Positions 27,236-45,705 of a stretch of DNA of 64,000 nt are shown one piece after another; position 1 is the stretch's first letter, and each line of letters begins with the position of its first letter. The stretch lies in the NCBI RefSeq assembly GCF_014205275.1, contig NZ_JACHND010000001.1, positions 2,294,001 to 2,358,000 of the forward strand, in the 5' to 3' direction. The stretch is from Sphaerisporangium siamense (GTDB lineage Bacteria; Actinomycetota; Actinomycetes; Streptosporangiales; Streptosporangiaceae). The translations under genes were made by a program, and so were the position numbers. The notes under the pieces are model-generated. The model was given only the letters and a program-made list of their open reading frames with translations. It searched no databases and was not told the DNA's origin.

Positions 27236-27579
27236 CAGTTCGTCTCGCCCGCGAAAAGCTTGGCCGCCTTACGCAGAATGTCCCGCTCCTGCTCCAGCTC
27301 CCGAATCCGGGCCCTGAGCTGCTTGTTCTCCTCTTCCAACACGTCGTCCGAGGGTACGTGCCCGGCTGATGGGTCCTGACGGGCAGCAGTGCCGCCGGCC
27401 GCTCGTTGCCCACCTTCACCCCGCGCCTGCGCGGCGCGTACCCACACCCGCAGCGTCTCGCGGCTGACTCCCAGGTCCCGCGCGATCGACGTGATCGTCC
27501 GGTCCGGCCTCGACAGCACCAACGCCACCGCGTCGGCCTTGAACTCGGGCGGGTAGTTCTTCATCACCATCAGTGACAT
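27232..27579 (-). CDS. IS3-family OrfA (transposase DNA-binding subunit)
   Basis: About 115 residues from ATG 27579 (MSLMVMKNYPPEFKADAVAL), preceded by an AGGGAAGAG purine stretch. HTH_Tnp_1 helix-turn-helix (TSIARDLGVSRETLRVW) at about 30-55 and a C-terminal leucine zipper (EEENKQLRARIRELEQERD), both standard. Its stop overlaps the start of OrfB by 4 bases, as expected for IS3. Confidence 0.88.
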   Translation of the reverse strand: MSLMVMKNYPPEFKADAVALVLSRPDRTITSIARDLGVSRETLRVWVRAAQARGEGGQRAAGGTAARQDPSAGHVPSDDVLEEENKQLRARIRELEQERDILRKAAKLFAGETNW

Positions 27580-27619
27580 CTCTTCCCTGGACCTCAAGAT
27601 CCAGTCTCCAAGGTGTTCA

Positions 27620-28610
27620 CGTTCAAGGGGAAAGGCCCGAGGTCTCGCCCTGCCACCCCCGGCGCGACGCCAAACCCTGCCCACACGGCCGCGTCATCTC
27701 CTGCACCGTCCGCCACACCGCCGACGACCCGCAGCTCGGCGAACCCCTGTGCCCGGACTGCTACGACTACACCTGCTCGGTGCTGTTCAACGCCGCCGCC
27801 TCCCTGCTGTGGGCACGTTTCGCCGACGCCCTACGCCGCCGACTCGCCACAGCTGGCGGACTCAGCCTGCGCGAACTCCGCCAACACCTGGTCCTCTCCT
27901 TCGCCAAGGTCGTCGAATACCAGCGCCGCGGCGTCGTCCACCTGCACGCCGTGATCCGCCTCGACGGCCCGGACGGGCCAACCTCCCCGCCCCCGGCCTG
28001 GGCCACCACCGACCTTCTCACCACAGCCATACAGGGCGCCGCCCCGGCCGTCTCCGTCCGCATCTCCACCACTCAAGACCAGCCCGTACGCATCCTGCGC
28101 TGGGGCCGACAGCTCGACATCCGTCCCATCTCCGCGGACGGCGGCCTGTCCGAACAGAGCGTCGCCGCCTACATCGCCAAGTACGCCACCAAAGCCGCCG
28201 AATGCGTCGGCACCCTTGACCGGCCCATCCGTCCACTGGAGGACCTCGACGCCCTCGGCCTGCGCGACCACCCCCGCCGGCTGATCGCCGAGTGCTTTCG
28301 CCTCGGCGCCCTGCCCCGCCTGGCCGAACTCCGCCTCACCCACTGGGCCCACATGCTCGGCTACCGCGGCCACTTCTCGACCCGTAGCCGTCGCTACTCC
28401 TTCACCCTTGGCCGACTCCGCACCATCCGCATCGACCACGCCCGAGAGCAAGACATCACCACTGGCAGGCTCCCCCTGTTCGCTGACGACGCCCCGATCA
28501 AGGTCACCCACTGGCGCTACGCCGGGAAGGGTCTGCCCATCGGAGACGCCGTCCTGGCGGTCGCCTTGGCGACTTCCAAGCGCGGTGCCTCGGCAGGTGA
28601 GGTCCGATGA
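27620..28610 (+). pseudogene. RepSA-like replication initiator, 5'-truncated
   Basis: The frame from the IS3 end reads VSPCHPRRDAKPCPHGRVIS, CPDCYDYTCSVLFNAA, the HUH-type motif GVVHLHAVIRLDGP and the tyrosine segment SVAAYIAKYATKAAECVG. It is about 85-90% identical by eye to residues 138-458 of the complete Rep at 53768-55144. The first about 130 residues are missing at the IS3 junction. The catalytic histidines and tyrosine remain but no start is present, so it should be non-functional. Confidence 0.85.
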
Positions 28611-28798
28611 TGCGTCAGGACAAGCTGTTGACACTGCCTGAGGTCCTCGACGAACTCGGCGGTGTTTCCCGCCGGACCTTCTACCGCTGGCGTGAACTGG
28701 GCCGCGCCCCGGTCTGCCTCCAACTTCCGAACGACGAACTCCGCGTCTGGCGCAGCGACCTCCTCGCCTGGCTCGACTCCCTCCGGCAGGCGGCATGA
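28607..28798 (+). CDS. xis: Excisionase (Xis), MerR/AlpA-type HTH, element A
   Basis: 63 residues, overlapping the rep stop by 4 bases. A single winged-helix DNA-binding domain (LLTLPEVLDELGGVSRRTFY, RWRELGRAPVCLQLPNDELR, VWRSDLLAWLDSL) of the kind used by pSAM2-type excisionases to bend attachment-site DNA. Nearly identical to the element B copy at 55141. It appears intact although its integrase partner is frameshifted. Confidence 0.88.
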   Translation: MMRQDKLLTLPEVLDELGGVSRRTFYRWRELGRAPVCLQLPNDELRVWRSDLLAWLDSLRQAA

Positions 28799-30163
28799 AC
28801 ACCAGCTATGACGTGAAGTTCTGGGAGGTTCGACGAAACCAGTCGAGTAAGCGGCCCTCCTATGAGGTTCGCTGGAAGGTCGGCGGTAAAGCGAAGTCGA
28901 AGACTCTTCGTACCAAGGCGCTGGCAGAGAACTTCCTTTCGGATCTGCGGCAGGCTGCCAAAGCAGGGGAAGCGTTCGACATCGCCAGTGGATTGCCAGT
29001 GTCGATGCTGGCCGCCGCATCGATCTCGGGGCCGTCAGTTCTGGAATTCGGGCGCTTTTACGTGGTGAGTCGATGGCGTGGCTCTGCAGCTCGTACCCGC
29101 GAAACGGACGTTTACGGCCTGCTGTCGCTCATCCCCGCACTTGTCGCCGACCTACCGGGCCGACCAGACGATCCGGCAGTACGGACGCTGCTCCGCGAGT
29201 ACGTATTGCTGCCGGATGACCGACGCCCCGAGGTGCCGCTGCACCTCCGACCTGTCTTGACTTGGTTGGAGAAAGCGTCATTGCCCTTGGCGGATCTTCA
29301 AGACTCCCGTGTGATCCGCACGGCCCTCGACGCCATCTCGATGACCTTCGCGGGTAAGGACGCCGCTGCCAATACGGTTCGCCGGAAGCGCGAAGTCCTT
29401 AATCACATGCTGGAACTCGCCGTAGAGCAAAAGGAACTCCAGGCTAACCCGCTGCACGCAATCAAGTGGAAGCCGCCAAAGGCCGCCGGTGCCGTCGACC
29501 CACGCACCGTCGTGAACCCTCAACAGGCTCGTGCACTACTGGCGGCTGTTCCGAAGATCGGCCGTACGCGGGGGAAGCGGCTACATGGGCTGTTCGCCTG
29601 TATGTATTACGCCGCTCTCCGGCCGGAGGAGGCCGCCGGGCTGCGCCAAGAGAACTGTGACCTGCCTGAGGAGGGATGGGGCCTGCTCACGGTCGAGAAA
29701 GGCGCGTCCCCAGGCCAACAAGAGGTGGACCAATTCGGGGGAGACCCACGATTCCCGGGGGCTCAAGCACCGTGCCAAGAACGACACCAGGGAGATCCCG
29801 ATCCCTCCCGTCCTGGTGGCCGTCTTGCGAGCGCACATCAGCCGGTACGGCGTCGCCGATGACGGTCGGCTGTTTCGCACGTCCAAGGGCAAGCCGTTCT
29901 CTTCCTCGGCGTACTCAGGTGTCTGGCAGCAGGCTCGGCGCGCGGTCTTGGCCGCGGAACAAGTCGCCTCGCCGCTGGCTGCACGGCCTTACGATCTGCG
30001 GCATGCAGCGGTGTCGCTGTGGCTCAACGCCGGCGTGTCGGCCACCGAGGTCGCCCAGCGCGCTGGCCACAGTGTCGATGTGTTGTTGCGCGTCTACGCC
30101 AAATGCATCGAAGGGCAGCAGTCCCGTGCGAACCGCAAGATCGGTGAAGCCCTGAACGACTGA
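28795..30163 (+). pseudogene. int: Tyrosine integrase of element A, frameshifted
   Basis: Starts MNTSYDVKFWEVRRNQ, overlapping xis by 4 bases, and is collinear with the intact element B integrase. At about 29697 a run GAGAAAGG replaces GAGAAGG, a one-base insertion. The first frame then runs to a stop at 29862, while the correct frame continues KARPQANKRWTNSGETHD, with catalytic PYDLRHAAVSLWLNAG, AGHSVDVLLRVY and the terminal tyrosine, to 30163. The N-terminal arm-binding and core regions are otherwise complete. A sequencing error cannot be excluded from one read of the sequence. Confidence 0.88.
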
Positions 30164-30415: not shown

Positions 30416-31147
30416 AGGCTATGCAGCTGGGATGCACCCTCTGAGCTCGGCAGATGCCTCACGCGGCGTGCGCCACCCCAAAGATCATCCCGTACATGTC
30501 CCACAAGCGGCATGCGCTCGGACGGTCCCGCGGCGGGCTGACAACCAGGTTGCACTTGCTCATCGAAGCTGCAGGCTGACGCTGCACCTGACCCCGCCGG
30601 CAACATTGAACTGCACCGCGCCTTCAAGCGGTGCTTGCCAAAGCTCCGGCTGCGCGCCACCGAGGCTCGTTCTCCTAGGGCCATTTCCAGGTGGCGGGGC
30701 GGTTCGATCCTCTGGCGGCGACTCACTTTTCGTCACCCTTGCCTGGTGGCCCACTGCGTACCTCTATCGCGATCAAGTGGAGTTGCACCTCACTGATGGC
30801 ATCCTCCGTGCTGGGCTCCAGGCGGAGATGGCCGACGACCGTGCCGCCGTGGCAGTCGTCGCTGCTGGCCCGTACGCAGGACCTAGCGAGGTTTACGCGT
30901 TGCTAAACGGCAGGGTCATTGTGACGGCCGCCTGATCGCAGGTAGGCGCTCCGCCCACATCCTTGGAGGGAGATGGGCGGGTTCGCGGTTTGGCCAGTGG
31001 AGACGCCAGTTTTAAGTCTGTGCACGGGTGCTGCCCTGATCTGTCGTGATCTGTCAGCAATCGTCGCTACAGTACGGCTCGCACCACCCTTCGCCCCTGT
31101 CCGTCTGCTGACCGTTGCGTCGGCCGTCGTTCCGAAGGAGCGCTCTC
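30416..31147. other. Left-end noncoding region of element B
   Basis: No firmly supported gene. A plus-strand frame ending at 30935 (VTLAWWPTAYLYRDQVELHL to LLNGRVIVTAA) reads like a short protein tail but has no clear start or SD. The last 30 bases hold the AAGGAG site for the next gene. Confidence 0.4.
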
Positions 31148-33037
31148 GTGGCGTTGCGTTGTCTGTACCAGGGCAGTGCCGAGGAACTCGCCGAGGTCAT
31201 CGCCCAAGGTCATCTGGTCGAGGAACTGCGCCGACGCTTCGTCGCGATGCACGGAGCGAAGCCGCGAGAGAGCGAGAGCGCCTCGTGGGGCGGCAGCATC
31301 CCCACCGTCGTCGACCTGCTGATCAGCGCTGGCCTGCAAGACGTACAGGTGCTGGTCGAGCTGACCGCGCCGATCTGCGACGTACGCATGGACATCGTCT
31401 TGGTCGGAAGCGAGCGCGAGACCGGCGAGATCTGCGTCGTGGTGGTGGAGAACAAACAGTGGTCGCAGGTCCGGCCGGTGCGCGGCACGCAGATGGTGCA
31501 CGTGCCGAACGCGCCTGGCCGCAACCCGCGCCTTCACCCGGCCGTCCAGGCTGACGGGTACCGGCAGGTTCTGCGCGACTTCGTGCCGATGCTGCGGACC
31601 GCCAAGGTGATGAGCCTGGTCAACCTGCACAACATGCCCGCTGCGGTCCTCGAGACGATCCAGGGCGACAGCCAGGAACTGGAGGGCGGCGCGAAGCGCA
31701 CGCAGATGTACGGCCAGGAACCGGAGGACCGTGAACGGTTCGCGGCCATGCTTACGAAGGCCCTCTCGGGCGAAATGGCGCTCGAGCATGCTCACGACCT
31801 ACTGTCCGCCCGCGTGTCACCGACCGACAGCCTGATGACCGCGGTCAACAAGAGCGTGCGGGGACGCCCCGGCTTCCCCTTGCTGGACGAGCAGCGCAAA
31901 GCCGTCGAGTACGTCAAGGTCCAGTTGGCAGCGAGCCGCCGGGGCAACAAGCGGGTCGTGCTGATCGTGGGTGGCCCCGGCACCGGCAAGAGCGTGATCG
32001 CCTTGGAGCTGCTGGCCGCGTGCAGCAAAGACGGGCTGAAGGTCGCGCACGCCACCGGCAGCCGATCCTTCACCCGCACGCTGTGGGAGTACGCCGGCGA
32101 GGACAAGCGCGCCAGGCGCATTTTCCGGTACTTCAACAGCTTCGAAACCCTCCGCTCGAAGCTGGATGTGCTCATCGCCGACGAGGCGCACCGGCTCCGG
32201 CGCCAGGCATCCGGCACGGGCCCGTCCCAGGTCGAGCAGCTCATTAGTGCGGCGGACGTGCCCGTCTTCCTGCTGGACGAGCATCAGGTGGTGCGTCCCG
32301 GCGAAGACGGCACCATCCAGCTGATTGAGAACGCGGCCAAGGAGATGAAGCACGAGGTCCTGCGGATCGACCTGCGCAGCCAGTTCCGCTGCGGCGGCGA
32401 CCCGGAGTATATCCGCTGGGTCGAACAGCTGCTCGGGCTGGTGGCTGGGGAACCGCCACGCCGGTGGCGGCCGCTGGAGAACTACGAGCTGTACGTCGCC
32501 CCCACCCCCGAGGCGATGGAGAAATTTCTCAACAGGCGCGCTGCCGAGACCAACAGCACCGCCCGCATCGCGGCAGGCTTCTGCTGGCCCTGGTCGTCCC
32601 CCCGCAAAGACGGCACCCTGGTCGACAATATACGCATCAATGGCTGGAACAGGCCATGGAACGTCCAGGGTGACGAGTGGGTCGGCGACAGGCCGCCGCA
32701 CACACTGTGGGCGACACACCCAGGCGGCCACGGCCAGATCGGCTGCATCTACACCGCGCAGGGCTTCGAGTACGCCTGGGCCGGCGTCATCTTCGGCCCA
32801 GACCTGGTCTGGCACGACGGAGGCTGGCAGGCCGACATCAGCCAGAACCGCGACAGGGCGGTCGAGGACGCGCTCGACTTCGACTTCCTGGTCCGCAACA
32901 CTTACAGGGTGCTTGCTACCCGCGGAATGCGCGGCACCGTGTTGTACTCCGTCGACCGCACCACCAACGTGATGCTGGCCAAGCTTGGTGCTCGTCTGCT
33001 CGACTACGAAGGCGTGCCCATGAACGCTCCGCGGTAG
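31148..33037 (+). CDS. Nuclease-helicase fusion with DUF2075 (Schlafen-like) ATPase
   Basis: About 629 residues from GTG 31148, with AAGGAG 7 bases upstream. The N-terminal 110 residues look like a PD-(D/E)xK nuclease (DVRMDIVLVG, then ICVVVVENKQW near residues 78-105, giving D...ExK). A superfamily 1-type DUF2075 ATPase follows: Walker A VGGPGTGKSVIALEL at about 273-287, Walker B VLIADEAHRLRRQ near 340, LRSQFRCGGDPEYIRWVEQL near 415-435 and the C-terminal VLATRGMRGTVLYS motif near 600. DUF2075 proteins are common in defence islands. It is convergent with the HNH gene and has its own promoter region. Substrate unknown. Confidence 0.8.
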   Translation: MALRCLYQGSAEELAEVIAQGHLVEELRRRFVAMHGAKPRESESASWGGSIPTVVDLLISAGLQDVQVLVELTAPICDVRMDIVLVGSERETGEICVVVVENKQWSQVRPVRGTQMVHVPNAPGRNPRLHPAVQADGYRQVLRDFVPMLRTAKVMSLVNLHNMPAAVLETIQGDSQELEGGAKRTQMYGQEPEDRERFAAMLTKALSGEMALEHAHDLLSARVSPTDSLMTAVNKSVRGRPGFPLLDEQRKAVEYVKVQLAASRRGNKRVVLIVGGPGTGKSVIALELLAACSKDGLKVAHATGSRSFTRTLWEYAGEDKRARRIFRYFNSFETLRSKLDVLIADEAHRLRRQASGTGPSQVEQLISAADVPVFLLDEHQVVRPGEDGTIQLIENAAKEMKHEVLRIDLRSQFRCGGDPEYIRWVEQLLGLVAGEPPRRWRPLENYELYVAPTPEAMEKFLNRRAAETNSTARIAAGFCWPWSSPRKDGTLVDNIRINGWNRPWNVQGDEWVGDRPPHTLWATHPGGHGQIGCIYTAQGFEYAWAGVIFGPDLVWHDGGWQADISQNRDRAVEDALDFDFLVRNTYRVLATRGMRGTVLYSVDRTTNVMLAKLGARLLDYEGVPMNAPR

Positions 33038-33184: not shown

Positions 33185-34288
33185 TCAAGGGGTGTGTTTG
33201 GCGCGAAAGTCGGCGAGTGACTGCTCAACGCCGGCTGTGGTCAGTCGCCAGAAATCCCAGCCGTCGACGTCGTCGCTGCCGATGGCTACGCGGGCCGCGG
33301 AGGTAGGGGTGCCCCAGGTACGGCCCAGGACGTTGATCCGTCCGTCGCGTTGCAACACGGCCCGCACGTCCTTCTTGTAATGAATGGTCAGCGGAATGCC
33401 GGCTGCCAGTTCGGCCGGATCCAGATGTTCGAGCAGGTTCCGCAGGTCTACATTCGAACGATGCCGGTCGAAGACCGTCGTGGCGGAAAGCGCCGTCTCA
33501 GGCTGGGCGGCCGGGTCTGTTGGCAGGGCGCAAGCACGCTGCAGCGCCAGGGCGGCTGTGGCCGCTGAGCTCCATGGCGCCGTGGGATGCACCTTTCTCT
33601 CAATCCGTGCCTGGACGGTGGGCAGGCTCGATATCTGGGCGAGTTCCGCGATCTCTGTCATGAGCTCGCGCCGTTGCTCGGTGATTTGGGTGGCGTTGAG
33701 CGCAAGGATTCGGATGGTCTCGTCGGCGCGGCACACGCCGCTTTGCGCCTCGGCTGGTGAGTACGGGGCGTTGCTGCGCCGGGCATAGCCGTAGCTGTCG
33801 AACCCGAGCAAGTCGGGGTCGCCTTGCTGGGCCGGGTCGAGGAGCAGCGGCTGCTCAAGTCTCTCGTTCCCTGGTTGCCAGGCGCGCGGCCCGGCCAGGA
33901 GCGGGAAGCGACTACCTTTGGCACGACCTTCCGGCACGCCGTCGAACCTGGCCCCACCGCTGTTGCAGTGCTTGCACGTGATGCGGTAATTCTCAATTTC
34001 GTAGGCGAGCCACCAATAGCCGAGATGGCCAGGTTCATCAAGCACCTCGGACTTGGGCCGAAAGTGGTCGACGTTGACATCTGCGCGCTGGATTATGGTC
34101 TCGCAGTACCAGCATTTCTGTCCGATGAGTGCGAGCAGAGGGTCGCGTACTTCGTCATCGGTCCAGTGGGCTTTGAAGATGCGCTCTTTGTTCTCGGCCA
34201 TCGCGGCCCGCACGACGTCCAAGGTGCGCCGAGTCCTGTTGGCCCAGGCCGTCGGGGTAGTGAGCCCCTTCATATCCACATGTCTCAT
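33185..34288 (-). CDS. HNH endonuclease, Septu PtuB-like
   Basis: 367 residues from ATG 34288, starting 6 bp after the ATPase stop. Zinc-binding HNH fold at residues 59-110: CWYC (Cys59, Cys62), VNVDHFRPKSEV (Asp74-His75), YWWLAYEIENYRITCKHCNS (Cys105, Cys108). The DH and Asn/Cys pattern is typical of an active HNH. The C-terminal 250 residues are helical and unassigned. ATPase-HNH gene pairs are the Septu (PtuA-PtuB) antiphage arrangement and also the effector of some retrons. No reverse transcriptase or ncRNA-like sequence was seen here, so Septu-like is preferred. Last gene of the minus-strand run starting at 41878. Confidence 0.8.
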   Translation of the reverse strand: MRHVDMKGLTTPTAWANRTRRTLDVVRAAMAENKERIFKAHWTDDEVRDPLLALIGQKCWYCETIIQRADVNVDHFRPKSEVLDEPGHLGYWWLAYEIENYRITCKHCNSGGARFDGVPEGRAKGSRFPLLAGPRAWQPGNERLEQPLLLDPAQQGDPDLLGFDSYGYARRSNAPYSPAEAQSGVCRADETIRILALNATQITEQRRELMTEIAELAQISSLPTVQARIERKVHPTAPWSSAATAALALQRACALPTDPAAQPETALSATTVFDRHRSNVDLRNLLEHLDPAELAAGIPLTIHYKKDVRAVLQRDGRINVLGRTWGTPTSAARVAIGSDDVDGWDFWRLTTAGVEQSLADFRAKHTP

Positions 34289-34293
34289 CGTCG

Positions 34294-35928
34294 TCAGAGC
34301 ACCGACGAGAAGTGCTCGTTGAAGAGTTCGGCGACCAAGGCCTCCAGCACTTCGGGGGACGGAGGGCTGGTACCCCGGGCGGCCTCGACGAGGGCGCGGC
34401 GCCTGCTGTGGAGTTCGGCGAGAAAGGCTGACACAAGCGGATCGCGGTTAGCGGTGGAAAAGCCCAGCGCATCGAGCTTGCCCGTGACCCGTCTGAGTTC
34501 TGCCTGCGCCACGGAATCGTGTGGCGCAGCTGCTAGTAGCTCGTACTGTTGATCGATTAGACCTTGCGTGTGTTCATCGAGTTGGGTGGGCAGTCCGAAG
34601 AGGTCGGTGGTTAGTAGACCGCCGGCACCCTGCCCGCGCGGGTCCGCCCTAGGAGTCACCGCCTTGGTCCGGCCCTCCTCGCCGGTGGAAACGACGCGGA
34701 TCTGCTGGCGGGTCATATTGGCCACTAGGAGGGGTTCGTGGGTGGCCGCGATGAACTGCGAGTCATGGTGTTCCCCTAGCACGATGCGAACGGAGCTGTA
34801 CCAGCGCCGGCTCCACTCGGGATGGAAGTGTGAGTCGGGTTCGTCGAGGAGGAAGAGTGACTCCTGAGCGCGCTGGAGGTGCAGCAGGCCCAGAATCGTC
34901 AGGATTTGCTGCTCTCCCGAGCTAAGGTCGTCGAGGTCGAGCGTAACTGTGCCGGTCCTCTGCAGCCGGATATCGACGGTGAGGTAGCCAGCGTCGAGCA
35001 GGGTAGCAAGCAGCCCGAACATCGACAGATCGGAGTCGAAGAGATTACGGAAGGCCTTGACGTCCTCGGTGGTACCCAGCACGATTCTGAATCCGTCTGC
35101 GGGGCTTCCGGCTCCATTCACGGGATCGGCATCGGGAATCAATCCGAACCGACCGGACTCGGCCGCCGCTGCGAACAGCGTGCGGGCAGGCCCACCCAGA
35201 CCCCAGTACGGGAGCGCGGCCAACGGCATTTCCCGCGCGGCGCGGGGCGCTCTGACGCGCAGGACTGCCGAGGCCACGTGCTGGATGTATGACTGCTCAC
35301 GCAGGTAGGCGCCGAATGAGTCGGACCAGTGGGTGGTCTGCGAGAGGAGCAGCAGAGGCAGGTGGGCGGGGGTGCAGAGGAAGATCGGGGTGTATAGGGG
35401 GCAGCTGATGGGCAGGGTGAGCTGTTCCGGCCACGAGTCTTCTAAAGTGTGGCTATCGAGCCACTCCTGAAGACCTTGTCGCCATTGCCTGCGCCAATCG
35501 CCGAGACGCTGCGCGGCGAAGCGGCGATGCTGGTCGAACTCCCCTGTCCAGGGAGCCCGAGGATGAGCCTGGTAGCCGAAAACGTGGTAAGGAAGATGTT
35601 CCGCCCAGTCTGCCCGGGGCACTCGCGTCGGCTCGCGGCCCGCCTGTGCCACAGTCATCCCGGGGGATGCATCGGGGGAAGCTTGGAGGACCCTGACGGT
35701 CTTGCCGCGCACCACGTAGTGGGCGTCGAAAGCGAATGCCGTACGGTGCTTCGGCCGATGGAGTGCACCGAAGATCTCAGCGAGCGCGTGTAGGACCCGC
35801 GACTTTCCGCCTCCGTTGGGGCCGATCAGTGTGGCGATGGCATGGCCGTCGTCCACCGCATCCTCGAGGTTTAGCTCGAAGTTGCGCATCCCCCGGTAGG
35901 AGGGGAGGCTCAGTCGGAGCAGCCGCAT
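34294..35928 (-). CDS. AAA/ABC-type ATPase, Septu PtuA-like
   Basis: 544 residues from ATG 35928 with CTGGAGGA just upstream. Walker A LIGPNGGGKSRVLHALAEIF at about 34-53, ABC signature DDLSSGEQQILTILG near 335, Walker B SLFLLDEPDSHFHPEWSRRW near 360 and the H-loop FIAATHEPLLVA near 395, all intact. The middle 250 residues hold a helical insertion rather than a long coiled coil. It would act with the HNH protein encoded 5 bp downstream. It lies 33 bp after the HsdM stop and on the same strand, so it may be transcribed with the restriction-like genes. Confidence 0.82.
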   Translation of the reverse strand: MRLLRLSLPSYRGMRNFELNLEDAVDDGHAIATLIGPNGGGKSRVLHALAEIFGALHRPKHRTAFAFDAHYVVRGKTVRVLQASPDASPGMTVAQAGREPTRVPRADWAEHLPYHVFGYQAHPRAPWTGEFDQHRRFAAQRLGDWRRQWRQGLQEWLDSHTLEDSWPEQLTLPISCPLYTPIFLCTPAHLPLLLLSQTTHWSDSFGAYLREQSYIQHVASAVLRVRAPRAAREMPLAALPYWGLGGPARTLFAAAAESGRFGLIPDADPVNGAGSPADGFRIVLGTTEDVKAFRNLFDSDLSMFGLLATLLDAGYLTVDIRLQRTGTVTLDLDDLSSGEQQILTILGLLHLQRAQESLFLLDEPDSHFHPEWSRRWYSSVRIVLGEHHDSQFIAATHEPLLVANMTRQQIRVVSTGEEGRTKAVTPRADPRGQGAGGLLTTDLFGLPTQLDEHTQGLIDQQYELLAAAPHDSVAQAELRRVTGKLDALGFSTANRDPLVSAFLAELHSRRRALVEAARGTSPPSPEVLEALVAELFNEHFSSVL

Positions 35929-35961
35929 GCGGTCCTCCAGTCGTGGCAGGCGTGGTTGCGC

Positions 35962-37473
35962 TCACTTAGCGGAGTCCCGATCCGGACGGTCACGGTGGAC
36001 GCCGTAGGGTCGGAGCGCCTCGGCGAGGGCGCTGAACTCGGCCAGCGCCGAGCGGAGTTCCCCGGTGATCTTCTCGGCCATGCGGTACAAGTCAGCCTCG
36101 GGCTCGCCGAGTGCAACGGGCTCATCCTGAGGTTCTCCGACCCGGAGGTCGAGGTTGGTGCGGTCTCTGGCGAGTAGTTCCTCCACACTGAAGGACCGGA
36201 ACGGGGGTGACTCGATCCGCTCGTTCCGAGGCCGTCCCGGCCGGTAAGCGGATACGAAATCCTCGAAGTCGGCGCCGACCAGCGGTTTGGTCTTGGTTGG
36301 CGTCGGGCGGTGAGACCGCATGTCGTACACCCAGAGTTGCTTGGTCGATGGTCTGCCGTCTGGCCGTGGAGAGGGTTTCTCGAAGAACAGAACGTTGGTC
36401 TTTAGACCGCCTGCATAGAAGACTCCTGCCGGGAGCCGGAGCAGGGTGTGCAAGTCACAAGCGCTCAGGAGTCGTCGTCGGATCAGGTCACCGGCTCCAC
36501 CTTCGAACAGCACGTTATCGGGAATCACGACGGCTGCTCGGCCGTTGGTCTCTAGCAGGCCGTAGACGTGCTGGATGAAGTTGAGCGCTCTGTTGCTGGT
36601 CTTCGTCCAGAAGTCGGGTCGGTAGTAAGTGTCGGCGTTGCCCATGGACCGCATCCCGAACGGGGGCGTGGTGAGGACCAGCGTCGCGTGCCGCGTCGGA
36701 AGGTGGGTGAGCGCGTCACCGACGGTGATACAGGGGTCGGTAGCGTCAGCCCTGGTCAGGCCGTGTAGGACGAGGTTCATCGTTGCGAGCCGCGCCGTGG
36801 CATCGACGAGTTCGGTGCCGAAGAACGCACCCGTGTTGAGTCGCGCGCGCTGAGCAGGGGTGACGCCTGGGGGGAAGTGGTTGACCAGGTACTCGAATGA
36901 CTTGATCAGGAAGCCTCCAGTGCCGCAGGCAGGGTCGATGATCGTGTCGTCGACCCCCGGCTGGACACACTGAACGATCGCCTCGATCAGCGGCCGCGGG
37001 GTGAAGTACTGCCCGGCTCCGGTTCGGCTGTCGGAGGTAAATCGGGCCAGCAGTGCTTCGAAGACCGCGCCACGGCTGGTGCTTCCATCTCCTGACCAGT
37101 GGTGGAGGTCCACCAGGTCGATCACCTGGCTGAGCTTGGTCGGCTCCTGAATGCGGTTCTGCGCCTTCCTAAAGAGCAGGCCGAGGTTGCCCGGCCGAGA
37201 CGCGAGGTGGTTGAGCATTTGCTCGTAGCGCCACGGCTGGTGCTGGACGTCAGTACGGCGAAGTTCTCCCCACGCGTCGTAGCCGAGCACGTCGAGCGGG
37301 TTGAGCGGGCGCTGGCTCTGTTCGTGGGCGAGCTTGAGAAAGATCAGGAAGGCCAGCTGCTCGACGTATTCTGAGACCGGGATCCCGTCCTCTCGCAGAA
37401 AGTCACTCAAGGACCAGAGGACCTTGGTGATGTCCTGGTCGCGCCCGGTATGGGGAGAAACAGGTGGGTTCAA
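35962..37473 (-). CDS. hsdM: Type I restriction-like methyltransferase subunit, altered motif IV
   Basis: 503 residues from TTG 37473, whose start overlaps the HsdS stop (TTGA). HsdM_N-like helical region (about 15-110), then an N6-adenine methyltransferase core: SAM-binding motif I TIIDPACGTGGFL at about 177-189, GTELVDATARLATMNLVLHG near 220-240. Motif IV reads LVLTTPPFGMRS (about 266-277), so the usual NPPF/Y is TPPF. The base-flipping Asn is replaced by Thr, which is not a usual residue at this position. Other regions (NRALNFIQHVYGLL, GRAAVVIPDNVLFEG) are normal. It should still bind SAM and form the M-S recognition complex; methylation is uncertain. Confidence 0.85.
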   Translation of the reverse strand: MNPPVSPHTGRDQDITKVLWSLSDFLREDGIPVSEYVEQLAFLIFLKLAHEQSQRPLNPLDVLGYDAWGELRRTDVQHQPWRYEQMLNHLASRPGNLGLLFRKAQNRIQEPTKLSQVIDLVDLHHWSGDGSTSRGAVFEALLARFTSDSRTGAGQYFTPRPLIEAIVQCVQPGVDDTIIDPACGTGGFLIKSFEYLVNHFPPGVTPAQRARLNTGAFFGTELVDATARLATMNLVLHGLTRADATDPCITVGDALTHLPTRHATLVLTTPPFGMRSMGNADTYYRPDFWTKTSNRALNFIQHVYGLLETNGRAAVVIPDNVLFEGGAGDLIRRRLLSACDLHTLLRLPAGVFYAGGLKTNVLFFEKPSPRPDGRPSTKQLWVYDMRSHRPTPTKTKPLVGADFEDFVSAYRPGRPRNERIESPPFRSFSVEELLARDRTNLDLRVGEPQDEPVALGEPEADLYRMAEKITGELRSALAEFSALAEALRPYGVHRDRPDRDSAK

Positions 37474-38819
37474 AGCAGGGACTCCTGTTGCCCGAACGGA
37501 TCGGCGGCGTTGGATAGCTGACCGCTGAAAGCCTGCTGCTGGAGGTTGTGTCGCAGCCGGTCGGCCATGACGAGTGCTCGTTCAGCCGCAGCGGAAGCGG
37601 TCTCGAGACTCACGGTGTGCGCCTGGACGAAATCGACCAACCGTTGCTGTTCAGCAGCGGGGGCAACGGGCACCGGCATCAGCCGGACCTTCCGCAAAGC
37701 GATGGACGCTAGCCCTGTGACCTGCGTGGCGTTGCGTTCGCACCACTGGCGGCCGAACCCGTTGGCGTGCCAGGCCAGGAGCTTGGGGTGCAGCAGCTGG
37801 TCCGTGATGCGGACTCGGAACACGTGATTCTGGTGGACGCAGTCGGGCAATTGGTCCTCCCAGATCCAGCCCCGGCCCAGCTTGTCATGGTCTCCGCCTC
37901 CGGTGAGGACCACGTCACCAGATCGAAGGCGGGCGGTCTCTGCTCGCTGTATAGGCAGCCGGACTGAGCGGACGTCGTCCAGGACCAATCGGCCGCGCTG
38001 AACGTTCGCCACCCGAAGGCAGGGAACTTCCACGTCAGTGGGCTCCCACTGCCGGCTGTTTTTGGTGATCCCGCGTGTCACATCGGCGATGGTCTCCAGG
38101 CGGGTCCATCGCCAGTCTGCGGGCAGGGATGGCAGGGCGCCGTCGTTTGTGCCTGCGGGGGCAAGGTTTCCTGGCGTGGCGAGCGTGTTGGAGAGCCGTC
38201 CCAGACAAGCCTGGGCGATCACGGAGCGTCTCAGCTCGTCCGCTTGGTCGACCGCTGTGCGGGTCCGAGTCTCTGCCGCGTCGATCTGGGCGAGGTGGTG
38301 TTCCAACAGGCTAATGATCCTGCGCTGTTCGGCAGGAGCCGGGAGCGGAAGCAAGATTTCTGCCAGGTCGCTCTGGCTGATCCGGTATATCCCCCCTCCG
38401 CCGTTACGCCGGGCGCGGGTCTCCAGCTGGCGACGTATGACCGGGGAGTTCCACAGATGAGCGAGGTACCTCGGGTTGACCAGGGTGGGGAGCACGCGCA
38501 CGCGGATCATCGTGTCGGGGAAGGTCGTAGGCGTTGGTGGATCATCGACCAATGCGCCCTCACCGACCAGGGAGAGCGAGCCGCTGGCCCGGCTGACAAG
38601 CAGGTCACCGGGTTCGGCTAGAAGAGGGGCGATGTTACGGGCCGTCCAGTCACCGCCCTTCGTCTGGGTGAAATCCACCGTTACTGCGCGAAGTGCCGTC
38701 AGCCTCAGCACGGGGAAGCCGTCCTCCCGGGTGGGCAGGGAGCGGCCGTTGACCAACTGCTCGCTCAGTACGTCAGCCAATCGGACAGCAGTCCAGCCTG
38801 TGGGAAGGTCATTCTTCAA
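37470..38819 (-). CDS. hsdS: Type I restriction-like specificity subunit
   Basis: 449 residues from TTG 38819, overlapping the HsdR stop by TTGA. Two target-recognition domains are visible. TRD1 starts DLPTGWTAVRLADVL and ends ISQSDLAEILLPLPAPAEQR. TRD2 starts LPADWRWTRLETIADVTRGI and ends ALRKVRLMPVPVAPAAEQQR. Each is followed by a long helical spacer with coiled-coil character (HLAQIDAAETRTRTAVDQAD; TVSLETASAAAERALVMADR). The arrangement is normal for a protein reading a bipartite DNA sequence. The sequence recognised cannot be deduced. Confidence 0.88.
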   Translation of the reverse strand: MKNDLPTGWTAVRLADVLSEQLVNGRSLPTREDGFPVLRLTALRAVTVDFTQTKGGDWTARNIAPLLAEPGDLLVSRASGSLSLVGEGALVDDPPTPTTFPDTMIRVRVLPTLVNPRYLAHLWNSPVIRRQLETRARRNGGGGIYRISQSDLAEILLPLPAPAEQRRIISLLEHHLAQIDAAETRTRTAVDQADELRRSVIAQACLGRLSNTLATPGNLAPAGTNDGALPSLPADWRWTRLETIADVTRGITKNSRQWEPTDVEVPCLRVANVQRGRLVLDDVRSVRLPIQRAETARLRSGDVVLTGGGDHDKLGRGWIWEDQLPDCVHQNHVFRVRITDQLLHPKLLAWHANGFGRQWCERNATQVTGLASIALRKVRLMPVPVAPAAEQQRLVDFVQAHTVSLETASAAAERALVMADRLRHNLQQQAFSGQLSNAADPFGQQESLL

Positions 38820-41800
38820 ACGAGTGTCCTACCCAGTTCGTCCAAGAGGTCGATCGCGCCGTCGGTTCCAAATGCGCTGAGGAAGCCGTCCGTGCCGCCT
38901 CGTCCCGAGAAGGGGACGCCATCGAGGTCACTGGGATCGAATCGGGCGTCGGCGGTTGCAGTCGCCTCCGCGATGTTCTCGATCCACCACCACTGAGCTG
39001 GGGTGAAGGGCCCGGCCTGTTGCTTGAACGCTGCCAAACGGCGGTGCATGGTCTCGATGGCCGCAGTCTGCCCGCTGGGCTCCTCCAGGGCCAAGCTGGT
39101 TGGTCGGTCGTAGACGTCGAGCAGCAGCTTCCGGAGCGCAGGTAGCTCGGAGAGCGGAGCGACTGCATCCCTGACTTCGTCTTCGACAGCCTTCTCGCCG
39201 CCGGCTTCGCGGAGCTGCGTCACGTGGTCCGCATCGACGGTGTTGATGAGCCGGGCCACCAACTCCTCCAGGGAGAGGCCCGCCAGCTTCCGTACGGCAG
39301 CGCCATCCACGTCGGTCAGCACGGGGATGAGCCTGGCGAGCCGCACTCCGAGTTCAGCAGTCTCGTTAGGGGTCAGGCCGCCGTCTACCGTACAGTTCAG
39401 CAGGCGCTCCAGGGCGAGCCGCCCGGCGCGCCCGGCCGCATCGGTCACGTTGACGAGCTGTCGGTTGTGATGGCGCGAGGCCCCCACTGCGTCGATCACC
39501 ACGAGCTGGGTCTTAGTGGACGCTCCTGGGGTGACGGCACGGAGCTCCGCCGGCGAAATGCGCTGGGCGCCTTGCGCCAGCAGCCGCTCGTAGTAGGCGC
39601 TGGACCGCACATCGCGCAGGAACAGCATGCACTCGACCGGCCGCATGTTGCTGGAGGCGGAGATGAGGTCCACCCCCACGGCGATCCGGAACTGTGGTGT
39701 CGTCCTGAAGTCCCTCAGGAGCTGGTCCGGGTTACCACTGCTACGGGTGATCTTCTGGCAGAAGGCATCGCCGACGCCAAATACCTCGCGGATGTGGTGG
39801 ACGACGTCTTCCGCATGCGCATCGTTGACCGCGAAGACCACTGTCTTGGGGACCACCAGCCCGCCTTGGGCCATCCTCTCAGGGAACAGGGCGGGGAGTT
39901 CGTCACGGAAAGCCGTCAGAACCGCAGTCAGCCGTTCGGACCCGACGATCGATGGGCCACTGTCCGGTCCGGCGTGGGCTAGGTCCTCGTCCAGTTGCTC
40001 GTATCGGGTGCGGCGCGGGCGCTTGGCTTCGGAGGCAATGTGCTCGTCCAACGGCACGAGCTTTGCCCGTCGGGGCGACTCGAACCTTGTTTGGTAGACG
40101 GAGTAGTCCACAAGGAGGCCATCTGCGATGGCCTGCTCAAAGGGATACTCGCTGACCAGATTGCCGTTGAAGAAGCCGAAGACCGGGGCCACCGGAGTCG
40201 CGGTGAATCCCACTACAGGAGCATCGAAGTACTCAAGGACAGCACGCCCTCTTCCATAGACCCATTGGCGGCAATCCTCGACGATGACGAGATCGAAGAA
40301 ATCAGTCGGCAGAGCCTCCGAGTAGATGACTTCGAGCGGCATGGCGTCGGAATGCGAAACCTGCTCGGCGGTCTCAGATGCCGACACGCGGACGGAACCG
40401 CTGTCCGGCTCTGATGCGCCTGCCAATAAGCCCGCCAGTCTCTGTGCCGTGGCCACGACGACTGATGCCGATGGAGTCGGGCCTGTCGAGGCCAGCTCTT
40501 CGACCTGGTACACGTCAGCGAGACTCCGCCCCTCATCCGGGGTACTGAACTGGCGGAGCAAGGCTGTCAGCTGATGCGCCAAAGCGACTCGATCGACCAC
40601 GAAGAGAATGTGGGCAGCCTTGGCATACCTGAGCTGACGATACGCCGCGAAGACCTCAGCGTTGATCCGTCCCGTTCCGGTGGTCATCTGCACCAGGGCA
40701 CGGCGCTGTCCGGCCGCGAGAGCTTGCTCGACGGCCAGTACTGCTCGCAGCTGCGGCGGACGAAGGTGCCCGGTCGCCGATGACCCCTCGTTCAGCCGTG
40801 GCAGGCGGGCGGTCAACCGGGCTCGGTAGGTCGGCGCCTCACTGTCCGCTTCTGCCTCACGCTGCCAACGGGCCAAAGTGGCGGGTCGGTGGAAGCCGCT
40901 GACGAGCCGGGCTCGTGGCTCCGGATCATTGGCGTCACAGAAAAGCAGACGCTGACCGTCGCTCACGTACCGATATGGCAGCGGTGAACGCCATACCGGC
41001 CACGGCGAGGCGTCGGTCAGTACTGCAGCCAGTACCTCCGCCTGTTCCATGGCAGCAGTGAGATCCGCGCCGCCCCTCTTGTATTCAATGATTCCGACCA
41101 CTTGCCCACCGACCAACAGCAGCATGTCGGCCCGGCGGCCGCCGGGCAGGCGGGGGCCCAGCAACACGCAACCGAGTGAGCGATTCCGATCATCCTCCGC
41201 ATCTCTGCCCAGAACGTCCCACCCTGCCTTGGTGAGGCTACGCTCCACCTCCGCCGCGATCGCCGCTTCTGCCAGTGGCTCATAGGCTGCGTCACGAGCG
41301 CGGACGATCAAGTGCTCGCGCTCTGAAGCCGGCAGGGATGTCGACCCCACCCGGAGGTCGATTTCCCGGCGCAACCAGGGCAGGGCTGCTTCCAGTGGCT
41401 CCACTCGCTCCGCTAGAGCATGTAGGGCGGACGAGTCTGTGTGAACAAAGGACATCGGCTCCTGGTCGGATGTCTGGAGCCGGAAGAACCAGACGGCGAG
41501 CTGAAAACAGCGCTGGACCAGGTGCGACGCTACGGCCTCTGTCGGGTCGGGCTCACCGCCCGCGAAGTTGTGAAGGTCTTCGAACGCGGCGAGGACTCGT
41601 GCGGGGAGTAGCCCAGCCCGGGTGAGCACTTGCAGACGAGACGACTGGTCGGTCGTCGGCGGTTGCACGCCTGCCATATGGCTGAGTTTGGTGGCAAGAA
41701 CCTCACCGAACTGGTGCGCCGCCACCACCGAGTCAGTTGGGTCAGTGGACATACGGGCCTCGGATGAAGCGCCGTAGAGCACTAGGAGTGGTTCGTAGGG

Positions 41801-41878
41801 GAGGAGGAACCCGAAATTGGCTGAGGCGAGGGCCAGGTTCGTGAACTGGCTTCCAAGCTCGCCCGGCTCTCGAGCCAC
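38816..41878 (-). CDS. hsdR: Type I restriction-like R subunit with intact nuclease but degenerate helicase motifs
   Basis: 1020 residues from GTG 41878. An N-terminal DUF4145-like segment (ASANFGFLLPYEPLLVLYG) is followed by a PD-(D/E)xK nuclease domain: RADMLLLVGGQVVGIIEYKR near 250-270, D and ExK intact. The RecA-like helicase region is clearly homologous to HsdR (ILFVVDRVALAHQL, AVLEYFDAPVVGFTATP, YPFEQAIADGLLVDYSVY). However, Walker A reads MTTGTGRINAE instead of GTGKT (about 398-408), the DECH box reads IVEDCRQWVYG (about 530), and motif VI QxxGRxxR reads LLAQGAQRIS (about 765). The frame is uninterrupted and coupled to hsdS, so it is not a decaying pseudogene. ATP-driven translocation is unlikely. 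Confidence 0.85.
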   Translation of the reverse strand: MAREPGELGSQFTNLALASANFGFLLPYEPLLVLYGASSEARMSTDPTDSVVAAHQFGEVLATKLSHMAGVQPPTTDQSSRLQVLTRAGLLPARVLAAFEDLHNFAGGEPDPTEAVASHLVQRCFQLAVWFFRLQTSDQEPMSFVHTDSSALHALAERVEPLEAALPWLRREIDLRVGSTSLPASEREHLIVRARDAAYEPLAEAAIAAEVERSLTKAGWDVLGRDAEDDRNRSLGCVLLGPRLPGGRRADMLLLVGGQVVGIIEYKRGGADLTAAMEQAEVLAAVLTDASPWPVWRSPLPYRYVSDGQRLLFCDANDPEPRARLVSGFHRPATLARWQREAEADSEAPTYRARLTARLPRLNEGSSATGHLRPPQLRAVLAVEQALAAGQRRALVQMTTGTGRINAEVFAAYRQLRYAKAAHILFVVDRVALAHQLTALLRQFSTPDEGRSLADVYQVEELASTGPTPSASVVVATAQRLAGLLAGASEPDSGSVRVSASETAEQVSHSDAMPLEVIYSEALPTDFFDLVIVEDCRQWVYGRGRAVLEYFDAPVVGFTATPVAPVFGFFNGNLVSEYPFEQAIADGLLVDYSVYQTRFESPRRAKLVPLDEHIASEAKRPRRTRYEQLDEDLAHAGPDSGPSIVGSERLTAVLTAFRDELPALFPERMAQGGLVVPKTVVFAVNDAHAEDVVHHIREVFGVGDAFCQKITRSSGNPDQLLRDFRTTPQFRIAVGVDLISASSNMRPVECMLFLRDVRSSAYYERLLAQGAQRISPAELRAVTPGASTKTQLVVIDAVGASRHHNRQLVNVTDAAGRAGRLALERLLNCTVDGGLTPNETAELGVRLARLIPVLTDVDGAAVRKLAGLSLEELVARLINTVDADHVTQLREAGGEKAVEDEVRDAVAPLSELPALRKLLLDVYDRPTSLALEEPSGQTAAIETMHRRLAAFKQQAGPFTPAQWWWIENIAEATATADARFDPSDLDGVPFSGRGGTDGFLSAFGTDGAIDLLDELGRTLV

Positions 41879-42014
41879 GTCAGCCCTCCCTACCTGCCCT
41901 GCTTGGTGATGTGGTCAGTGCCGTGGGATCCGCTACAGACCGATCTCCTACCCTACCGTCCGCCACCTTCGTGCAACGTGGAGGTTTGGCCCGGGTGCTG
42001 GCGCCGACGGCCCC

Positions 42015-42619
42015 TTGCGAGTCCTCCTGCTGGGGGCGACGACGGATGGAGGGCTGCGCATCGGCCGCGAGCAGACGCGGATCCGCGCGGCCGTCAACGC
42101 CGCCCTCCACCGGGACGCCGTCGAGTTGGATCCGCGGCCGGCCGCGACCACGGCCGATCTGCTGGACGGCCTCTCAAAGTTCAAGCCGCACGTCGTGCAC
42201 TTCTCGGGGCACAGCGATGAGAACTTCATCGTCCTGGAGGAGGACATCGACGAGGAGCACGAGTTCGGGGTGGACGTCGCCGCTGGCACCTTCGCCCGTG
42301 CAATGCGGCACCGGACGAGCCACCGCTGCTGGTCATGTTCAATTCCTGCACGTCGGCCCCACTGGCCGAGGCGCTCGTGGCTGCTGGCGTGGTACCTTCC
42401 GCCATTGGCATGTCCGACGAGATCGAAGACACGGACGCGATCGCGTACGCGGCGCAGTTCTACGCGGCCATCACCGACGGCAACTCGATTCAGAGCGCGC
42501 ACGACCTCGCCGTAGTCGGCCTTGAGTTAAGCGGCTTGGCGGGCGTTGACTTGCCACATATGGCATGCGCGCCCGATGTCAATCCCGCGCAGACCTTCTT
42601 AGTCAGGAAGCTGACGTAG
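42015..42619 (+). pseudogene. CHAT (caspase-like) protease domain, frameshifted
   Basis: The first frame reads VLLLGATTDGGLRIGREQTR then KFKPHVVHFSGHSDENFIVL, giving the catalytic His (about residue 62). After a shift near 42310, a second frame reads LLVMFNSCTSAPLAEALVAA with the catalytic Cys, then GMSDEIEDTDAIAYAAQFYA and ends at 42619. His and Cys together with the conserved C-terminal helices identify a CHAT domain. A single frameshift separates the two catalytic residues, and no good start or SD is seen. It is divergent from the hsdR gene and was probably the protease of a lost conflict module. Confidence 0.72.
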
Positions 42620-43152
42620 ATCAACGCTCTCGGCGCTGGCCGGATCGGGGGTCGCGGTCAGGCGGCGACCCGTGGACCACCCTTGGCCAGCGCCTCCACC
42701 GGAACGGTCCACTCCTACGGGGTCGAGCCGTGACTTCCTAATTGCAAACGAGCGCCAGCGACGACGTAGAGAGCTCCTGACCCTGCTCAAGCGGCAGATG
42801 GCGACTGGTGACGTGTGATCGCTTAGGCAGCGTTGCTGTACCCGCTGCTGTACACAGCGCTCTGGCCGGCGGCCAGCCCAAGTCACCCGATGGCAGGGGA
42901 CCCGTACCGCAGGGCCACCAAGCCCGAGGAACGGAAGCCCCGCGGCAGCATCAAGCTGCGGTTGAACGACGAGGTGCGCAGCCCTCTACGCCCGCCGGCC
43001 ACATGGGTAACCCTGGGTTGCCTTACTCCTCACTCTTCCTATCCAAAGACCCGCATCGTCTAGTTTCGATGCCCGCGAATCAAATTGGTAGGGCTGTTAG
43101 GCCTGAAACAGAAATACGGTGAAATCAAACAATATCATCCGAGTATCCAGAT
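42620..43152. other. Intergenic region with possible gene scraps
   Basis: No supported gene. A plus-strand frame ending at about 42818 (RDFLIANERQRRRRELLTLL) and another near 42940 (RKPRGSIKLRLNDEVRSPL) read like protein fragments but have no context. GC falls sharply after about 43050. Confidence 0.35.
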
Positions 43153-44622: not shown

Positions 44623-45024
44623 GGTTAGGCTGTCCGACCTTTACTGATCTAGGTACTCATCGTGCCTATTATTGTGCAACATGTCATTGCCGACCAGTAG
44701 TCGTCCATTTTGTGTCGAAAACTGACTAGAAGTGGCGTCTACGTAGATCCGGCCCAGTGATTGGATGGCAAGTGAACCCGAGCGTAGGGCTGCCAGCCAA
44801 AGCACTGTAAGCCGCGCAGCAGTCGACCAGTCTGACCACGTACCGAAGTGTGGATGGGCACGGCTTTACTGGTGACTCCTGCCGGCCTCTCGGCGCGCGG
44901 GGCGGTGCGTGCCCGGACCGGCCGAAGAGCCGCAGCCGGGCACGCAGACCGACCAGCGCGCCCGGCGGGCCGCGGAGCGGGCCGCCCTTGATAGACGTAC
45001 AGATAGGTTACTTTCTGATCTTGA
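44623..45024. other. Noncoding stretch ending in a block shared with element A
   Basis: No gene supported. From about 44984 the sequence (CCCTTGATAGACGTACAGAT) matches 25693 onward nearly base for base, continuing through the adjoining regulator gene copies. Confidence 0.45.
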
Positions 45025-45705
45025 TCAGGTGCCCGCGTCGCTGGCCTGCGCGAGTGGGATGGCGCTGGTCCAGGTGTTGTCCAAGCTAGTGAGGTAGGTC
45101 GTTGCGGTGCTGGTGTCGTCACCGGCGTGGATGTGCATGACGGGGGCTTGGGCGGCGGGGGTGGCGTAGGCGTGGAGGTTGACGAGGAGGTTGTCGTCTG
45201 CTCGGTAGATGGAGTTGTAGAGGACGGTGCGGTGTAGGCGGATCTCTACGCCCTCGACGTCCTGGAGCGGCTCGTAGAGTTTGATGGCGTTGTGGATGCG
45301 GGCGGTCATGAGGTCGGGGCCGATGCCTTCGTCTGTTCCGCGGGCGGCGACGTGGGGGCTTTCCGGGTTGCCGAGCATGATGCGGACCTGGGCGCCGGCT
45401 TGGGCTCGTTCGGTGATGAGTTGGAGGATGCCGGTGTTCTCGGCGAGGAAGAGGCCGCTGTAGACGAGGATGTCGATGTGGTGGTGGGCTGAGGCGAAGA
45501 GTTGGCGCCAGAGGGCTTGGGGGACGGTCCAGCGGTGGGGGTAGACGGCTTTGATGTCGCGGCCGATGGGGCGGTGTGGTTTGGCGGCGTCGGGCCAGAG
45601 GTCGGCTTCGTCGACGTGGAGGAGGTCGGCGACGGCCCAGCGGTGGCGGGGGTGGGGGATGCGGCCTTTGAGCCAGCGGTCGACGGTTTTGGGGTCGACG
45701 GCTAG

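Follow-up and report, generated by a model that had tools for sequence, protein, structure and literature searches.

Organization of the locus

The DNA analysed here, a 64,000-nucleotide (nt) stretch of Sphaerisporangium siamense (NZ_JACHND010000001.1, positions 2,294,001 to 2,358,000; hereafter the window), carries an operon that joins a complete-looking set of type I restriction-modification (R-M) genes, in which the restriction subunit HsdR has lost its motor motifs, to a gene pair resembling ptuA and ptuB of the Septu defence system. All five genes lie on the minus strand in the order hsdR-hsdS-hsdM-ptuA-ptuB, with 33 nt between hsdM and ptuA and 5 nt between ptuA and ptuB (Table 1). The initial annotation of this DNA had described the HsdR homologue as coupled to hsdS, which the overlap of the two frames bears out, although the operon is larger than had been noted, hsdM, ptuA and ptuB having been missed. 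In Pfam, HsdR matches ResIII and SWI2_SNF2, with HSDR_N and EcoEI_R_C remaining under their cutoffs, HsdM matches N6_Mtase, PtuA matches AAA_21, and Methylase_S covers a single stretch of HsdS (28.4 bits, cutoff 22). The host genome contains one HsdR of this family and two other N6 methyltransferase loci.

The same five-gene order is found at related loci in S. inhibens (L002) and S. diastatochromogenes (L003) and at locus L101, and recurs at loci L084 and L085 with hsdS and hsdM in one open frame (10439-13771 in L084, 10649-13771 in L085). DNA homology with L003 runs from 33199 to 41902 of the window at 73% and, like that with L002 (Table 1), is confined to the five-gene unit within the flanks compared.

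Table 1 Features of the hsdRSM-ptuAB operon in the window (aa, amino acids; strand "." for a feature without orientation)
Feature	Position in window	Strand	Remarks
hsdR homologue, 1020 aa, motor-dead by motifs	38816..41878	-	open frame, GTG start
hsdS, 449 aa, two recognition domains kept	37470..38819	-	4 nt overlap with hsdR
hsdM, 503 aa	35962..37473	-	4 nt overlap with hsdS
ptuA-like AAA/ABC ATPase, 544 aa, with intact Walker A, Walker B and signature motifs	34294..35928	-	PADLOC PDLC00294, 954 bits
ptuB-like HNH nuclease, 367 aa, C-terminal RAMA-like domain	33185..34288	-	PADLOC PDLC00327, 503 bits
DNA homology unit with S. inhibens L002: five genes and 113 nt upstream	33189..41991	.	83.5%
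HsdR PD-(D/E)xK residues D251...E265-Y-K267, kept	41078..41128	-	profile aligns region to 3h1t
HsdR Walker A region MTTGTGRI, residues 398-405	40664..40687	-	MATGAGKT in 25/25 aligned intact homologues
HsdR Walker B EDCR, residues 534-537	40268..40279	-	DECH in 25/25 aligned intact homologues
HsdR motif VI ERLLAQGAQR, residues 764-773	39560..39589	-	consensus EQMKGRGART
HsdM motif IV TTPPF (residues 268-272), with Thr in place of the NPPF Asn	36658..36672	-	SAM motif DPACGTGGF kept

Loss of the motor motifs in HsdR

In the alignment of the window HsdR with its homologues, G401-T-G-R404-I stands in place of GAGKT and V533-E-D-C-R537 in place of VDECH, so that the Walker A lysine is replaced by R404 and the Walker B glutamate by D535. 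The canonical motif VI residues Q765, G768, R769 and R772 are changed to R, A, Q and Q, respectively, the arginines thus being lost to Q769 and Q772, and motif V reads DLISASSNM instead of DMIATGTDV, while LFVVDR and the TATP of motif III are kept. The GTGRI and EDCR substitutions, the nuclease triad and the uninterrupted 1020-residue frame described initially are therefore real; motif VI is indeed lost, albeit in a register one residue off from that first given, whereas the claimed loss of all helicase motifs stands for Walker A, Walker B and motif VI but not for LFVVDR and motif III.

All 25 intact homologues in the 31-row alignment A7 contain MATGAGKT, DECHRS and the nuclease D/E/K residues, and GKT together with DE[C/A]HR was read in 58 of 58 loci outside the motor-dead group (L004-L032 and L037-L065, L037 being the same place as L066), a reading that excludes 13 of the 44 Streptomyces and 4 of the 34 own-family genomes with an HsdR match as well as some second places. 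Given this uniformity, the changes in the window HsdR are far beyond chance. The two-RecA fold is present behind the nuclease domain and the motor fold is predicted to be intact; linker and C-terminal segments are deleted. EcoR124I HsdR is absent among the 50 structural matches listed, which says nothing either way.

Motor-dead relatives of the window HsdR

The HsdRs of L002 (80% identical to the window protein) and L003 (62-63%) were found in a scan of genome contigs, that of L101 (47%) by a PtuA profile, and those of L084 and L085 (40-42%) by an HsdR search of 392 Streptomyces genomes. Homologues sharing the substitutions, which had been named initially as something to look for, thus exist at 80, 63, 47 and about 41% identity and bring the motor-dead HsdRs to six. 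The position of the Walker A lysine is occupied by arginine in the window, L002, L084 and L085 and by alanine in L003, and only L101 keeps the lysine, hence it is lost in five of the six; the Walker B glutamate is aspartate in all six, and the GR of motif VI is gone in all except L101. The nuclease triad is kept in half of the group, namely in the window, L002 and L003, and lost in the other half, where the E and K positions hold V and L in L101, whereas L084 and L085 have E and R there. Down to 40% identity, none of the six hsdR frames contains a stop or a frameshift.

Homologues with normal motifs are, among those read, at most about 44% identical to the window HsdR (36-43% for the 25 aligned intact ones), so that close relatives with a working motor, which had been named as the finding that would speak for decay, were not seen. 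A decaying single copy is ruled out, motor loss being common to the relatives at 80, 63 and 47% identity.

In the maximum-likelihood tree of 24 rows, a single branch with a support of 100/100 separates the six motor-dead HsdRs from the other rows, although L101 and the stem of L084/L085 are long branches, several rows deviate in composition, and the rows (24 in this tree, 30 in another) were hand-picked from the loci available. With midpoint rooting, the sister of the group is L066, a locus with an intact motor that is likewise linked to ptuAB; two non-actinobacterial HsdRs added as an outgroup landed among the intact rows. Seven ptuAB-linked hsdR loci of this family were found, six of them motor-dead and one intact. 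Within 20 regions around HsdR homologues, picked by the analyst and including L084 and L085 for their short-looking frames, ptuA and ptuB accompany hsdR in L066, L084 and L085 and are absent from the remaining 17. No relative of the window HsdR was found in viral contigs.

The methyltransferase and specificity subunits

The S-adenosylmethionine-binding motif DPACGTGGF is kept in the window HsdM. METHYLTRANSFERASE is changed too: motif IV reads TPPF in the window and L002, APPF in L101, DPPL in L084 and DPPM in L085. Within the motor-dead group NPPF is kept in L003 only, the asparagine being lost in five of six HsdMs, whereas it is present in all 17 HsdMs of loci with an intact HsdR, L066 included, and in all five other PtuAB loci. 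NPP(Y/F/W) is described as the catalytic site (PMC3874165), and the HsdM of the window lineage is, judged by this motif, catalytically dead. The aromatic residue of motif IV is also gone in L084 and L085. Elsewhere, a second HsdM-like gene with SAM and NPPF motifs kept in the alignment occurs in the R-S-M loci L068, L070, L072 and L073.

The HsdS subunit behaves unlike that of the ordinary systems compared. Among 32 ordinary pairs from 16 loci with at least 55% HsdR identity (below about that value the measure loses its meaning, as for L066-L067 at 0.87), HsdS lags behind HsdR in every pair, with a median ratio of HsdS to HsdR identity of 0.53, a maximum of 0.79 and, as an example, 89% for HsdR against 30% for HsdS. 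Such a lag is expected from the swapping of recognition domains, which these systems seem to undergo. The three pairs of the motor-dead group with HsdR identity above 55% give 0.95, 0.98 and 1.02, the pairs being few and, as in the ordinary set, not independent; L084-L085 (1.09) was excluded because S and M form one frame there.

Both recognition domains can be aligned among the relatives and, with domain boundaries set by the analyst, are 81 and 82% identical between the window and L002 compared with 57% for the spacer, 65 and 71% compared with 56% for L003, and 49 and 68% compared with 47% for L101. Since neither domain is less conserved than the spacer, recognition of a sequence seems to be still under selection. 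The S subunit of EcoKI matches the window HsdS in two stretches (6.4e-24), and the second recognition domain is shared at 51-62% with five ordinary systems, hence it is probably a real DNA-reading domain.

The PtuA-PtuB partner

An AAA/ABC ATPase with intact Walker motifs beside an HNH nuclease is the gene pair by which Septu is recognized, and the window PtuA is related to the solved PtuA structure 8ee4 (1.7e-9). The Walker and signature residues of PtuA and the HNH residues of PtuB are intact in six of six aligned loci and also in L101. RAMA scores slightly below its Pfam cutoff on the window PtuB (34.4 bits, cutoff 35.2) and is matched at E up to 0.01 in all six PtuBs of alignment A4; a RAMA-like domain is described as a reader of modified bases (PMC12839542), and our guess is that it may link PtuB to DNA.

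Searches at E up to 1e-30, each scoring a small number of candidates per genome, detected this kind of PtuA in 6 of 392 Streptomyces genomes, in 1 of 338 genomes of the family to which the window belongs and in 1 of 396 of the phylum sample; the last two matches are the window itself. Among the six Streptomyces loci, L091 lacks hsd genes and has a ptuAB that is a broken remnant. Loci L092, L097, L098 and L099 have M, S, PtuA and PtuB, with hsdR not seen within the stretch examined (in L098 this stretch begins at the first base of the record, and the gene tables of PLSDB are incomplete); these four loci indicate that PtuAB can occupy the place of the effector. Plasmids gave six PtuA matches, and of the four examined three are among the loci just named, L092 being the other of those, while the fourth has hsdR. 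Phage records yielded weak, partial PtuA matches in three records and nothing stronger. Of the retron I-A components, reverse transcriptase and msr-msd, none was seen among the neighbours scanned with Pfam, no Rfam search having been made. The MAD2, MAD3 and MAD5 equivalogs reached 71.5 of 720, 34.3 of 420 and 40.3 of 400 bits, respectively, below the MADS cutoffs.

Selection and probable movement of the unit

The ratio of nonsynonymous to synonymous substitution rates (dN/dS) between the window and L002 is 0.26 for R, 0.27 for S, 0.28 for M, 0.19 for PtuA and 0.26 for PtuB, and within the window group (window, L002 and L003) it spans 0.26-0.31 for R and 0.28-0.36 for M. For whole HsdR the motor-dead pairs give 0.26, 0.31 and 0.31, and 0.39 for L084-L085, compared with 0.06-0.26 in 12 ordinary pairs. 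At 0.26-0.39, hsdR is maintained, though less tightly than in ordinary systems; these values fit the selection for an ATP-independent role that the initial annotation had proposed, as do the single branch uniting the six loci and their uninterrupted frames.

Within HsdR, the nuclease domain has the lowest dN/dS of five segments in the three pairs of the window group (0.17-0.20, bootstrap 0.08-0.34), nearly tied with RecA1 (0.21) between the window and L002, and RecA2 reaches 0.35-0.41 (bootstrap 0.24-0.62); since the bootstrap intervals overlap, this contrast is suggestive. The rise of RecA2 over the ordinary pairs (0.03-0.21, with 0.04-0.27 for the nuclease domain) is clearer. In L084-L085, where the nuclease lysine is lost, the values are 0.38 for the nuclease domain and 0.24 for RecA2.

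The synonymous divergence (dS) of hsdR is 0.43 between the window and L002 and 0.83 between L002 and L003, whereas rpoB of the same genome pairs gives 0.56 and 0.14, a contrast that suggests transfer of the unit from one lineage to another. Two rpoB copies are present in the genome of the window (G000, C1:82-3387 and C1:8320262-8323567).

Surroundings of the operon

Two directly repeated copies of about 726 nt with 91% identity occur at 25592-26315 and 44885-45606 of the window, and the roughly 18.6 kb in between contain the operon and remnants of an integrative element. The latter include a replication initiator of the pSAM2 RepSA type scoring 377 bits and a 210-aa frame that narrowly passes the phage-integrase cutoff (27.2 against 27.1 bits), at 27573-28610 and 28795-30163, which together look like the remnant of an actinomycete integrative and conjugative element next to defence genes; the integrase frame overlaps another frame without a Pfam hit and is possibly interrupted. 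Convergent with ptuB on the plus strand lies a 640-aa Schlafen group 3-like helicase (SLFN-g3, 253 bits; 31115-33037), a further candidate defence gene outside the conserved unit. Right upstream of hsdR, at 42000-42700 on the plus strand, a gene seemingly split over two frames looks broken; its first part has no Pfam hit, and its motifs are suggestive of CHAT peptidase-like proteins.

A silenced type I complex as a proposed sensor for PtuAB

By sequence comparison, the locus is a conserved five-gene unit that combines loss of catalytic residues with intact effector residues, purifying selection, a place of the six motor-dead HsdRs on one branch of the tree, and specificity and restriction subunits that change in step. 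We consider it tentatively, with a probability of about 0.45, to be a composite defence system in which a catalytically silenced type I complex of fixed specificity senses infection and controls an intact PtuAB. The ancestor would have been linked to PtuAB and would have had a working motor, as L066 does now. In the present system HsdM2-HsdS would still bind one fixed DNA sequence, and HsdR would dock on HsdM2-HsdS in a structural capacity, its nuclease perhaps being gated in the subclade of the window. The silent Hsd assembly would hold PtuAB inactive or else recruit it, and disturbance of the complex by a phage would release or activate PtuAB, by analogy with EcoprrI and PrrC, whereupon PtuAB would cleave its target, possibly tRNA or DNA, and stop the infection. 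Targets reported for PtuAB vary, with tRNA-Tyr described for retron-Eco7 and Septu EcB88 and nicked DNA for another Septu (PMC11555353, PMC13096335). A wider and more doubtful proposition is that one clade of type I R-M has become a sentinel of frozen DNA specificity that does not restrict, for the most part does not methylate, and guards the cell through its control of a Septu effector, comparable to immune receptors carrying a dead copy of the attacked enzyme, with the guard stage of intact motor surviving in a related locus.

Of the two roles suggested initially, a recruitment platform fits better than a local nuclease, since ptuAB is the obvious thing to recruit or restrain. An HsdR that cuts beside the HsdM-HsdS target without ATP or translocation, much as type IIG enzymes do, with PtuAB as a second line, is unlikely: the triad and the lowest HsdR dN/dS of the nuclease domain in the window, L002 and L003 agree with it, making it possible for that subclade only, yet L101, L084 and L085 lack an intact triad, the dN/dS intervals of nuclease and RecA2 overlap, and a constitutive cutter would be left unprotected by its own operon because the HsdM of the window, like that of L002, lacks the asparagine of NPPF. 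Less likely again is a pure decoy, in which phage anti-restriction proteins such as DNA mimics or Stp-like peptides bind the silent complex and thereby free PtuAB, with DNA recognition left unused. A decoy would be expected to lose both activities yet retain its subunits and have an effector joined to it, as in this locus, and there are precedents in PARIS, described as sensing Ocr, and in PrrC, activated when Stp inhibits EcoprrI (PMC12707154, PMC2610378); the recognition domains of HsdS, however, would hardly be expected to remain at least as conserved as the spacer.

It is less probable still that selection acts on PtuAB alone and that hsdRSM is a slowly eroding leftover. The elevated dN/dS of RecA2 in both the window group and L084-L085 and of HsdR as a whole relative to ordinary systems, the deleted linker and C-terminal segments, the PtuAB loci in which hsdR was not seen and the L091 remnant would all suit such a passenger, but the absence of stops and frameshifts in all six hsdR frames, R, S and M ratios well below 1 in the window group, conserved recognition domains and the sharing of the five genes as one block argue against it. 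A complex that still restricts with altered catalytic residues is very improbable, despite the Walker A and motif VI retained in L101 and the prediction of an intact motor fold, as the window HsdR lacks the Walker A lysine, the Walker B glutamate and the motif VI arginines, and mutations in the DEAD-box motifs of R subunits are described as impairing ATPase and translocation (PMC3874165).

Several points weigh against a silenced sensor controlling PtuAB. The contact between the Hsd proteins and PtuAB is suggested by gene order alone, and independent events are few, there being six motor-dead loci in all. Silencing is graded, NPPF being intact in L003 and Walker A and motif VI in L101; constraint on the motor-dead HsdR is weaker than on ordinary HsdR, and the graded losses together with the raised dN/dS could also reflect a weakly selected gene set that is slowly decaying. 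Certain other adenine methyltransferases work with a DPP motif, hence loss of methylation is less certain in L084 and L085 than in the window. A pure scaffold does not explain the nuclease kept in the subclade of the window, and DNA binding without control by methylation, if it occurs, would require some way to avoid self-recognition. The non-actinobacterial HsdRs, given their place within the intact rows, do not root the tree.

Suicide nucleases that watch restriction enzymes are known in few cases, for example PrrC and PARIS. The series formed by L066 with an intact motor and PtuAB, the six motor-dead loci and the four M and S loci in which HsdR was not seen would allow a direct look at what PtuAB senses, at whether it needs restriction and at how a guarded enzyme becomes a pure sensor. 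For annotation, the locus is a warning that hsdRMS genes may look complete and still lack both restriction and methylation activity.

Comparison with known systems

Type I R-M, Septu and suicide nucleases linked to type I enzymes are already known, while no description was found in the open-access literature, judged by titles, of a conserved type I complex that is dead in motor and methylase, fixed in its specificity and coupled to PtuAB. With type I R-M (an EcoAI/PRK11448-like HsdR with HsdM and HsdS) the locus shares the subunit set, the overlapping genes and the nuclease triad, but it differs in the lost motor residues and methyltransferase asparagine, in an S that keeps step with R, in the deletions and in the attached PtuAB. 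Septu, including the effectors of retron Ec78 (I-A), is alike in the PtuA ATPase and PtuB HNH nuclease, which are the best PADLOC hits, whereas here type I subunits are present in a five-gene operon and PtuB has a RAMA-like C-terminus. The loci L092, L097, L098 and L099 likewise combine type I M and S with the effector pair; in contrast to the window, hsdR was not seen in the stretch, HsdM keeps NPPF and PtuB is shorter (284-305 aa). PARIS has a related ATPase (AriA, 1.2e-20) and is described as a guardian, like PrrC, that senses the anti-restriction protein Ocr and unleashes a nuclease (PMC12707154), but it consists of two genes without type I subunits, and AriB is reported to be a Toprim nuclease rather than HNH (PMC12409363). 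In EcoprrI-PrrC, too, a type I enzyme is encoded with a suicide nuclease bearing ABC ATPase motifs (PMC2610378, PMC3874165), the anticodon nuclease PrrC being silenced by EcoprrI and activated by Stp (PMC2610378). EcoprrI, however, is described as a conventional type IC system, whereas in the window the effector is PtuAB, the type I enzyme is apparently silent, and the linkage is one of genes.

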